From an uncultured Faecalibacterium sp. (GTDB lineage Bacteria; Bacillota; Clostridia; Oscillospirales; Ruminococcaceae): a DNA stretch of 42,890 nucleotides. The stretch is from assembly GCA_934561555.1 (NCBI GenBank), contig CAKTGQ010000018.1, forward strand, positions 1 to 42,890, in the 5' to 3' direction. Positions 24,894 through 27,129 of this stretch are shown piece by piece. The position numbers were made by a program, and so were the translations under genes. The notes beneath the pieces are model-generated. The model made no database searches. It was given only the letters and a program-made list of their open reading frames with translations, and was not told where the DNA came from. Position 1 is the stretch's first letter. Every line of letters begins with the position of its first letter.

Positions 24894-25385
24894 ATGCTGA
24901 AGTTGGATTTGAACCTGCTGTGGACTGTGGTGGATGTTCTGATCTTGTATGTGCTGCTGCGCAAGTTTTTGTTCAAGCCCATCCAGAACGTGCTGGATCA
25001 GCGCCAGAAGATGATTGAGGCAGACATTGCAGCGGCACAGACCTCTAAGACTGAGGCCGCCGCAGCGCTTACGACCGCACAGGACAAGCTGCGTAATGTG
25101 GACAACGAAGCCGCAGCCCGCCGCGCAGCCTACGAGAAGCAGGCTGAGGTAGAAAAGCAACAGCTGCTGGCCGATGCACAGAAGCAGGCTGACGAGATCG
25201 TGGCTGCCGGTAAGGCCGCTGTGGAGATCGAGCGTCAGAACAAGCTGCGGGAAGCAGATGCACAGGCTACGGCACTGGCACGCTCCATGTGCGAAAAGCT
25301 TTTGAAACATAATTTGACCGCCCAGGATGATGATCAGCTGCTGGACGATCTGCTGCAGAAAGCAGGTGCAGGCAATGGCAACTGA
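24894..25385 (+). CDS. atpF: ATP synthase F0 subunit b
   Basis: 163 residues. One N-terminal membrane helix (about 7-26, LLWTVVDVLILYVLLRKF) and a long Ala/Glu/Lys-rich helix that forms the peripheral stalk. It ends DDDQLLDDLLQKAG and has no delta domain attached, unlike mycobacterial b-delta fusions. Its last 11 bp overlap the start of the alpha gene, leaving no room for a separate atpH. Confidence 0.92.
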   Translation: MLKLDLNLLWTVVDVLILYVLLRKFLFKPIQNVLDQRQKMIEADIAAAQTSKTEAAAALTTAQDKLRNVDNEAAARRAAYEKQAEVEKQQLLADAQKQADEIVAAGKAAVEIERQNKLREADAQATALARSMCEKLLKHNLTAQDDDQLLDDLLQKAGAGNGN

Positions 25386-27129
25386 ATTCAGTCGTGAATT
25401 TTTTGCGGATAACCGCATCGTCAAGGCCAGCCTGCGCTGCGCCCATAAGCTCCGCGAAAAAGATCTGGACCGCATCAAGTCGGAGATCAAAAAGCTGTAT
25501 GACGCCACGGAAGTCATCCTGAACATCACCGTGGACGAGAGCCTGCTCTCCGGCTATGTCCTGCAGGTGGGCGACCGCGTGTTCGACAATTCCGGCCGTC
25601 ATCAGCTGGACAAAATGATGGAGGGTAAGCCCTCGCTGGCTACCCTCAAGACCCGCATCGAGGACTACAAGCCCGCCGAGACCTCCGCAGAGGGCGGCGT
25701 GGTCATCTCCTCTGCCGATGGCATCGTGCACATTGACGGCATGAACCGCGCTGTGTACGGCGAGATCGTCACCTTTGAAAACGGTGCCAAGGGCATGGTG
25801 GAAAGCGTGGAGCCCGAACAGCTGGGCGTTATGCTGTTCGATGGTGCCGAGACCGTTGGTGTGGGCACCATGGTCACCCGCAGCGGCAAGCGCGCCGGTA
25901 TCCCGGTGGGCGATGCTTTTCTGGGGCGTGTCATCAGCCCGCTGGGCGAGCCCATCGACGGCAAAGGCCCCATCGAGGCCGAGGGCTATAACCCCATCGA
26001 GAAGCAGGCACCCAGTATTCTGGAGCGCCAGAGCGTGGACACCCCGCTGCACACCGGTATTCTGGCTATCGACTCCATGTTCCCCATCGGCCGCGGTCAG
26101 CGCGAGCTGATCATCGGCGACCGCCAGACCGGTAAGACCTCCATTGCTACCGATGCCATCCTGAACCAGAAGGACAAGGATGTGCTGTGCATCTATGTTG
26201 CCATCGGTCAGAAGGCTTCCTCCATCGCCCGCGTGGCTGAGGATCTGAAAAAACACGGCGCTATGAGCTATACCACCATCGTGGCAGCTACCGCGTCGGA
26301 TTCTGCTCCGCTGCAGTACATCGCCCCCTATGCGGGCACTGCACTGGCCGAGTACTTCATGTCCAAGGGCAAGAGCGTGCTTATCGTTTACGATGACCTG
26401 TCCAAGCATGCGGTGGCTTACCGTGCCATCTCGCTGTTGCTGCGCCGCTCTCCGGGCCGTGAAGCTTACCCCGGCGATGTGTTCTACCTGCACTCCCGTC
26501 TGCTGGAGCGCTCCTGCCGTATGCGGGATGATCTGGGCGGCGGCTCTATCACCGCACTGCCCATCGTAGAGACGCAGGCCGGCGATGTTTCGGCCTACAT
26601 CCCCACCAACGTCATCTCCATCACCGACGGTCAGATCTTCCTGGAGAGCGCCCTGTTCAACGCTGGCAACCGCCCGGCTGTCAACGTGGGTCTGTCGGTT
26701 TCCCGTGTGGGCGGCGCTGCCCAGACCAAGGCCATGAAAAAGGCCAACGCAAACCTGCGTATCGAGCTGGCACAGTATAAGGAGATGGAATCCTTTGCAC
26801 AGTTCAGCTCCGATCTGGACGCCGAGACCCGCCGCCAGCTGGAGCACGGCAAGGCGCTGATGGAAATGCTCAAGCAGCCGCTGTGCCAGCCTAAGTCCGA
26901 TGCCGAGCAGGTGGTCATTCTGGTGCTGGCCTCCCACGGCCTGCTGGATACCCTGCCCACCGCAGAGCAGCGGGAAAAGACTACTGCCTTTGTGCGGCAG
27001 TTCCGTGCAGACGTCTCCGGCACCATGCAGAAGATCGACGCCGACGGCAAGCTGGAGCCCGACCGGGTGGATGCCATCCTGAACGCCTGGAAAGCTTATG
27101 CGGGAGGCAATGACCATGTCGTCCAGTAA
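25375..27129 (+). CDS. atpA: ATP synthase alpha subunit with fused delta C-terminal domain
   Basis: 584 residues, about 80 more than usual. Residues about 16-83 look like the C-terminal domain of subunit delta: a helix (LREKDLDRIKSEIKKLY), strands VILNITVDESLLSGYVLQVG, and the end GDRVFDNSGRHQLDKM, matching the delta pattern IGGxxVRIGNRxYDGSxxxxL. From about 86 it is alpha: the N-terminal helix SLATLKTRIEDYK, SADGIVHIDGMNRA, Walker A GDRQTGKT (248-255), then the conserved nucleotide-binding core and C-terminal helical domain. No separate delta gene is in the operon and the delta N-terminal helical domain is absent. Start ATG 25375 overlaps atpF by 11 bp. Alpha function is certain; the delta assignment rests on pattern recognition. 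Confidence 0.88.
   Translation: MATEFSREFFADNRIVKASLRCAHKLREKDLDRIKSEIKKLYDATEVILNITVDESLLSGYVLQVGDRVFDNSGRHQLDKMMEGKPSLATLKTRIEDYKPAETSAEGGVVISSADGIVHIDGMNRAVYGEIVTFENGAKGMVESVEPEQLGVMLFDGAETVGVGTMVTRSGKRAGIPVGDAFLGRVISPLGEPIDGKGPIEAEGYNPIEKQAPSILERQSVDTPLHTGILAIDSMFPIGRGQRELIIGDRQTGKTSIATDAILNQKDKDVLCIYVAIGQKASSIARVAEDLKKHGAMSYTTIVAATASDSAPLQYIAPYAGTALAEYFMSKGKSVLIVYDDLSKHAVAYRAISLLLRRSPGREAYPGDVFYLHSRLLERSCRMRDDLGGGSITALPIVETQAGDVSAYIPTNVISITDGQIFLESALFNAGNRPAVNVGLSVSRVGGAAQTKAMKKANANLRIELAQYKEMESFAQFSSDLDAETRRQLEHGKALMEMLKQPLCQPKSDAEQVVILVLASHGLLDTLPTAEQREKTTAFVRQFRADVSGTMQKIDADGKLEPDRVDAILNAWKAYAGGNDHVVQ

Follow-up and report, generated by a model that had tools for sequence, protein, structure and literature searches.

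A delta C-terminal domain fused to the alpha subunit of a Faecalibacterium ATP synthase, and related stator designs in Clostridia

The ATP synthase operon and the delta-alpha fusion

The window analysed here is a DNA stretch of 42,890 nucleotides from an uncultured Faecalibacterium sp. (GenBank assembly GCA_934561555.1, contig CAKTGQ010000018.1, positions 1 to 42,890 of the forward strand). It holds an F-type ATP synthase operon, determined by Pfam and blast to have the order a-c-b-alpha-gamma-beta-epsilon, in which the alpha subunit opens with the C-terminal domain (CTD) of subunit delta (OSCP) and the delta N-terminal domain (NTD) is absent. Lengths are given in amino acids (aa), and structures were predicted with AlphaFold2 (AF2). 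The features are as follows.

25375..25626, + strand: delta (OSCP) CTD, NTD absent, residues 1-84 of the fusion (PF00213, purifying selection, AF2 fold)
25375..27129, + strand: atpA, delta-CTD-alpha fusion of 584 aa, roughly 64 kDa (PF00213, PF02874, PF00006 and PF00306 in one frame)
25636..25665, + strand: alpha N-terminal helix, residues 88-97 (AF2 secondary structure), about 5 residues past the last delta helix (74-82); placement unsure because the model confidence (pLDDT) is below 50 at residues 84-104
24894..25385, + strand: atpF, subunit b, 163 aa (PF00430, E 5.1e-21), with an 11-bp overlap with atpA
24651..24878, + strand: atpE, subunit c, 75 aa, predicted H+ type (c sequence comparison)
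23926..24609, + strand: atpB, subunit a (PF00119, E 6.8e-41; ATG chosen at 23926, mechanical open reading frame (ORF) from 23818)
27116..27994, + strand: atpG, subunit gamma (PF00231, E 8.2e-88; start chosen, mechanical ORF from 27098)
28135..29547, + strand: atpD, subunit beta (PF00006, E 1e-73)
29547..29954, + strand: atpC, subunit epsilon (PF02823 and PF00401, i.e. both domains)

Residues 2-82 of the fusion were matched by Pfam PF00213 (OSCP/delta) with an E value of 3.1e-15 and 57.1 bits (gathering score, 22.3), and the match spanned only positions 89-169 of the 172 in the profile, which correspond to the delta CTD. Two claims of an earlier reading made from the letters alone (the sequence-only reading), that the about 80 extra residues of alpha are a delta CTD and that the delta NTD is missing, were confirmed by this profile check. 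TIGR00962 (alpha) matched residues 89-568 with 709.8 bits (cut-off, 484.45), as expected of an F-type alpha, and TIGR01145 (delta) on the first 95 residues gave an E value of 7.1e-12 and 45.9 bits, below its cut-off of 57.5, a score that might fit a half-length match. In a sequence search of the PDB (E ≤ 10), 24 of the 25 matched chains were delta/OSCP, including four fusion chains (three b-delta and one engineered delta-alpha), and the sole non-delta chain was unrelated (E 0.48). For residues 1-100, scoring was restricted to the 7994 candidates sharing most words; all of them had E values below 0.001, and PF00213 was present on all 120 among the matches listed. It is practically certain from these data that a delta CTD is joined to the N-terminus of alpha and that the NTD has been lost.

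The alpha frame opens with the ATG at 25375, 11 bp inside atpF (which ends at 25385), so the overlap described by the sequence-only reading is real; AGGTG lies six bases upstream of this ATG, and the DNA upstream of the fusion start codon is the end of b. No second delta frame was found in the window by blast, and the operon is without a separate delta gene.

Selection on the extension was estimated from nonsynonymous (dN) and synonymous (dS) divergence; loci are denoted by L and genomes by G. Between the window and F. hattorii (L004), dN and dS were 0.157 and 0.833 for residues 1-84 (ratio 0.19) and 0.060 and 0.604 for the alpha part (ratio 0.10), respectively. For the extensions of L005 and L006, dN was 0.061 and dS 0.343 over 75 codons, the stretch compared opening eight codons upstream of their start codon. 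The window fusion is identical to those of L001-L003 at 582 of 584 residues, and its extension differs from theirs by 3-7 silent changes and zero replacement changes. Judged by these substitutions, the extension evolves as coding sequence under purifying selection. A translation start of alpha near residue 85 is therefore unlikely, and the extension is almost certainly translated and folded as a delta CTD.

The AF2 model of the window fusion was built from 50 aligned rows (mean pLDDT, 73.3). The extension was modelled as a helix (2-13), a strand, a helix, three strands and a helix (74-82), with pLDDT of 69-84 for the block at residues 11-80, followed by the low-confidence break at residues 84-104 and then by alpha. 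When the model was compared by Foldseek with 350,542 PDB chains, 9jc1_I, J and K, the fused chains of an engineered triple-stalk Bacillus PS3 enzyme, ranked 1, 2 and 4 with 561-562 columns and 47-49% identity; for 9jc1_I, 561 columns were matched in a chain of 563 residues. The structure prediction proposed earlier as a check of the extension thus had an engineered fusion chain, 9jc1_I, as its top PDB match. The root-mean-square deviation to 9jc1 is 8 Å, and therefore domain placement is not fixed by the model. By sequence search, 9jc1_I alone was aligned from residue 17, and the others from residue 83 or later (best 60 of 68 chains).

Two known systems resemble the window in part. In mycobacteria b is joined to the whole of delta and alpha is separate; this is likewise a stator fusion involving delta, and its chains (7jg5_d, 8j0s_d) are weak sequence matches to the extension, but in the window b is a separate frame of 163 aa and an NTD-less delta is fused to alpha. 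The N-type (alternate F1F0) ATPase has, to our knowledge, no separate full delta gene; it was rejected here, the window alpha scoring 580.2 bits on TIGR03324 against a cut-off of 750.5, and the gene order a-c-b-alpha-gamma-beta-epsilon also differs. At L145 (3721-4482), in an operon that looks N-type from its sequence, a 254-aa b ends in a delta-CTD match (25.2 bits; cut-off, 22.3).

Upstream of atpB, an ORF at 22860-23369 of the window was matched by DUF2798 just under the cut-off (21.4 versus 23.5 bits), and it was present by blast in five of the six Faecalibacterium loci, L004 being the one without it.

Other delta genes and a second operon in Faecalibacterium

The contig scan gave 18 loci, six from Faecalibacterium and twelve others with lower identity; in the latter twelve, delta was in its own frame, apart from alpha (the alpha of L018 is broken in two). 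Besides the fusion, a full-length delta (profile from 1 or 2 to 171; frame of 181 aa) was found in all six Faecalibacterium genomes first searched. The layout around it was complete in G003 and partial in G001 and G006, out of these six: in G003 the full delta sits in a second complete operon, in which a, c, b, delta, alpha, gamma, beta and epsilon pass the Pfam cut-offs, and in G001 and G006 a, alpha, gamma and beta adjoin it (L019 and L021, respectively; blast).

L020 4019-10534 (G003): second F-ATPase operon, with full delta and a predicted Na+-type c (Pfam, c comparison)

Many of the surveyed genomes are fragmented, so absent genes may be missing data. Among the 31 genomes of the genus sample, a CTD-only match of the fusion type was found in 25 and no fusion match in six; the layouts were read for G001-G006, G550 and G556, and the rest were inferred from frame length. 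Of the 25 matches, 23 were in frames of 591-615 aa and two in frames of 311 and 388 aa, which are taken to be cut by contig ends. A full delta was also present in 19 of these 25 fusion-bearing genomes and absent from the other six. The earlier statement that there is no separate delta gene therefore holds for the window and its operon and fails for close relatives (full delta in 6/6 and 19/25), and delta missing from the whole genome was rejected for Faecalibacterium relatives. As judged on the genomes of relatives, the cell probably holds a full delta that could cap this F1.

The c subunits of the two operons were compared at what we take to be the Na+-ligand positions, namely position '32' and the residue after the ion-binding Glu. 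The window atpE has Ile at '32' and Gly after the ion-binding Glu; the c of the second operon in G003 has the Na+ ligand pattern, with Glu at '32' and Thr after the ion-binding Glu. Because these patterns differ, the two Faecalibacterium enzymes are probably one of Na+ type and one of H+ type. The fusion enzyme is very likely separate from that of the second operon.

Stator designs in Clostridia and their origin

Relatives were surveyed for the same fusion, as the sequence-only reading had proposed, and CTD-alpha recurred in the genus, family, order and class samples. In the GTDB family sample (148 genomes), 12 genomes had a CTD-alpha or triple fusion and five had a delta-alpha fusion keeping most or all of the NTD; seven of these 17 were without another delta match. 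The 12 include G040 and G065, which are under the Pfam cut-off (19.8 and 18.1 bits, respectively; the row of G065 crosses a TGA), and G053, which is cut by a contig end; gene layouts were read for this sample. In the order sample (137 genomes), a delta match was found in 61 and a CTD-only match in an alpha-length frame in 22, of which 20 had no other delta match; the layouts were read for 19 of the 22, with G588, G695 and G642 resting on frame length. In four more genomes of this sample, b and alpha are separated by a free delta frame of 74-78 aa that comprises the CTD only. The class sample (123 genomes, a few of them shared with the order sample) gave 16 fusions, 13 CTD-only (including G375, just under the cut-off) and three with a partial NTD match; in 12 of the 16 genomes the fusion was the only delta match, and five genomes contained free CTD frames 81-113 aa long.

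Some assignments were made individually. L133 (G996) was counted as fused on a Pfam match that is CTD-like by eye, with no delta found by blast, and the delta of G578 (profile 86-171, frame of 161 aa) was kept as separate, since its sequence suggests a complete delta whose NTD has diverged; G526 (L011) has an ordinary delta. Partial delta matches were found in frames of 231-302 aa in G944, G965, G995 and G1020 (contig 22) of the class sample, and in a 189-aa frame of G057 and a 296-aa frame of G053 of the family sample. The OSCP matches of L061 (G068) and L124 (G684) were left uncounted: they stand beside a beta-like ATPase (35% or 31%) and a b-like protein, and by sequence these loci look like FliH/FliI.

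Read from their genes, the related Clostridia form a series of designs, comprising separate delta, delta-alpha with NTD, CTD-alpha, tandem CTD-CTD-alpha, free CTD and b'-CTD-alpha. Its less usual members are as follows.

L055 3897-6146 and L086-L102: b'-deltaCTD-alpha triple fusion, about 740-780 aa long except for L088, which is cut at 521
L106 4523-6562 (G664): tandem delta CTD-CTD-alpha, about 680 aa
L108 5002-5223, L109 4780-5013, L110, L111 and L140-L144: unfused delta frames of 74-113 aa that comprise the CTD only and lie between b and alpha

The 750-aa alpha frame of L055 consists of a membrane helix (mean Kyte-Doolittle hydropathy, 2.2) with a b-like stalk, a delta CTD (E 1.4e-8) and alpha. 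When its first 268 residues were searched against 394 genomes of the order, 28 were matched; in 18 of these the match involved the b' part, namely in the genome of the query itself and, at 35-44% identity, in 17 more (in two of these rows it extends upstream by one codon, into the stop preceding the frame); G943 gave an additional triple-fusion match, cut by a contig end. A separate b gene was present in all 18 triple-fusion operons. The L086 chain was above the Pfam cut-offs for b (32.5 versus 28), delta (41.5 versus 22.3) and alpha, and the b' part of P0195 was just under that for b (24.1); P0129 and L055 had no Pfam b match at E 0.01, the first 268 residues of L055 giving E 0.09. Residues 1-240 of the L086 chain were matched by 1009 of the 7998 scored candidates, and the b domain PF00430 (precomputed) was present on 28 of 120 homologues among the matches listed. 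In an AF2 model of the triple fusion, b' helices were found at 2-55 and 72-123 and the CTD block had pLDDT of 83-89; only the first about 260 residues were used because alpha was poorly modelled (pTM, 0.36). By its gene, each F1 built of triple-fusion alphas must carry three membrane anchors, unless these are cut off, and an F1 of the tandem L106 chain would carry six CTDs, if intact. One operon, that of L070 (3583-4732), has two delta frames, the first full-length and the other with the CTD only, and the 261-aa delta frame of L107 (4902-5684, G700) has an extra CTD match after the full domain.

For the phylogeny of the designs, an alpha-core tree was constructed by a careful method from 76 selected rows, with the N-terminal extensions excluded; near-duplicates and short frames were removed beforehand, as were some of the loci with separate delta. 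All operons in the tree that have a fusion or a free CTD fell in one clade of 53 rows (98/90), together with the separate-delta loci L071 and L125; the canonical alphas L020 (G003) and L045 (G147) fell outside it, though their genomes are also represented inside. The triple fusions formed one clade (100/99). At least four changes between fused and unfused and at least four between NTD present and absent are needed on this tree, the latter rising from 4 to 5 if G578 is scored as NTD-less. L054 (CTD) was sister to L067 (NTD mostly kept), and the CTD-alpha rows L114 and L118 were placed among free-CTD operons; from these placements, both routes, fusion then NTD loss and NTD loss then fusion, seem to have been taken. 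The main clades agreed in a quick tree of 81 rows. In both trees the window's branch had no resolved sister, and the two Faecalibacterium fusion types (that of the window and that of L104/L105) were not sisters.

By operon type, the Na+ ligand pattern of c was found in 18/25 with separate delta, 0/24 with CTD-alpha, 0/5 with delta-alpha and NTD, 0/1 tandem, 0/3 free-CTD and 1/18 triple-fusion operons. The loss of these ligands together with fusion is no independent evidence, because the unfused clade members L071 and L125 are also without them.

Stalk number and coupling ratio

The sequence-only reading knew of no described delta-alpha fusion, which is out of date. In the study of Ueno et al. 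(2025), the delta NTD was removed and the CTD fused to alpha in the enzyme of Bacillus PS3. Cryo-EM of this engineered enzyme showed as many as three stalks and three a subunits, and H+/ATP was 5.8 versus 3.0; the authors conclude that a single stalk is imposed by the delta NTD and propose that ions per turn equal Nc × Na (PMC12229609). The window fusion has the same domain order as this construct (9jc1), with an NTD-less CTD in frame on the alpha N-terminus via a short linker and no separate delta in the operon. The construct differs in being man-made, in lacking the epsilon CTD and in keeping alpha from its second residue (PMC12229609), whereas the window epsilon has both domains and the TIGR00962 match of the window alpha starts at model position 9.

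Natural fusion has also been noted outside the present samples. Acidaminococcus belongs by name to another class (Negativicutes). A delta-alpha fusion with the NTD missing is stated in the Discussion of PMC12229609 to occur in Acidaminococcus fermentans and in UniProt G4Q3K6 and A0A1I2C5T3. Apart from this paper, titles and abstracts among the matches listed revealed no work on natural delta-alpha or on b-delta-alpha fusions, most subscription papers and bioRxiv being outside the search. The kind of fusion is thus already in print.

On balance, we favour a natural multi-stalk, low-gear proton ATPase, of which stalk number and H+/ATP are inferred. The delta CTD, the b-binding clip, is joined directly to the window alpha, and the symmetry-breaking NTD, the occupant of the threefold axis, is lost. 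With three alphas per F1, the head top would therefore offer three equal b2 sockets instead of one, and as many as three b2 stalks could stand round one c ring, every one of them with an a subunit to itself. The earlier expectation of three delta CTDs per F1, if alpha is intact, and hence of a different stator cap is supported by the CTD-alpha fusion without NTD. Ions per turn would be Nc × Na, giving a low-gear enzyme by which ATP could be made, or protons pumped, at a proton-motive force (pmf) insufficient for an ordinary synthase, and many Faecalibacterium would have such a low-gear enzyme beside a normal-gear, predicted Na+-type one. It is probable that at least some of the molecules have more than one stalk, and several a subunits with a raised H+/ATP are slightly favoured. 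The multi-stalk reading draws on the domain calls, selection, fold and 9jc1 match, on the stalks, a subunits and H+/ATP of the engineered enzyme, on the fusion genomes without other delta and the recurrent NTD loss, and further on the free CTD-only genes and the conserved triple fusion with an anchor on every alpha.

Several observations weigh against it. Fusion and NTD loss are not strictly tied because NTD sequence is retained in L064-L068 (the NTD in full or for the most part; profile from 3, 3, 18, 23 and 18, respectively) and in L137-L139 (part; profile from 35). A further delta match is present in 10 of the 17 family-sample fusion genomes. No feature demanding several a subunits was found in the window a, b or c. 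The stalk and a-subunit numbers proposed for the native enzyme are those of an engineered homologue, in which the share of triple-stalk particles was extremely low and pumping activity was below wild type (PMC12229609).

The best of the alternatives, though unlikely, is that the three CTDs on F1 hold a single b2 and a single a, with space, expression or membrane contacts as the limit, and that the fusion just makes a separate delta unnecessary. It gains from the rarity of triple-stalk particles and from the one-stalked state of three of the eight engineered sub-classes (PMC12229609), as well as from the NTD-keeping fusions, in which there is presumably room for one central NTD only. Gel ratios, however, gave about two stalks for the engineered enzyme, and its authors ascribe the rare triple particles to stalk loss on the grid (PMC12229609). 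Furthermore, the three sockets would be identical with no NTD left to break the symmetry, and triple-fusion relatives get three anchors per F1 from the gene itself.

Rather improbable is an arrangement of three stalks with one a subunit, which would give a stiffer stator and leave H+/ATP unchanged. Eukaryotic V-ATPases, with three stalks and one a subunit, are a precedent, and the triple fusions fix the number of b' and not that of a; but each stalk seen in the engineered enzyme kept its a subunit, and H+/ATP was doubled with about two stalks (PMC12229609).

An ordinary enzyme, in which the extension is cleaved or untranslated or F1 is capped with the full delta from the second operon, is very improbable: a full delta does lie elsewhere in the six Faecalibacterium genomes first tested, but the extension is under purifying selection, fusion genomes without other delta match exist, the design originated repeatedly in the tree, and the other delta of G003 has its own b and alpha and a c of another type.

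For the clade of Clostridia that includes Faecalibacterium, the chances seem evenly balanced that it holds natural multi-stalk proton F-ATPases of several origins by NTD loss, with triple fusions, paired with a separate b, hard-wiring three b/b' stalks per enzyme and, probably, as many a subunits. Faecalibacterium, an abundant genus of the human gut, is available in culture; with operons of intermediate design also at hand, the multi-stalk proposal of 2025 is directly testable, most sharply on the triple fusion because there the gene itself dictates three anchors per F1. In all ATP synthases known so far there is one a subunit per complex, and ions per ATP are fixed at c/3 (PMC12229609). A natural enzyme exceeding this number of a subunits would be an exception to the rule, and its pmf threshold for synthesizing ATP would be lower; the hard-wired triple-fusion branch, if the reading is true, would be a fixed low-gear rotary motor.

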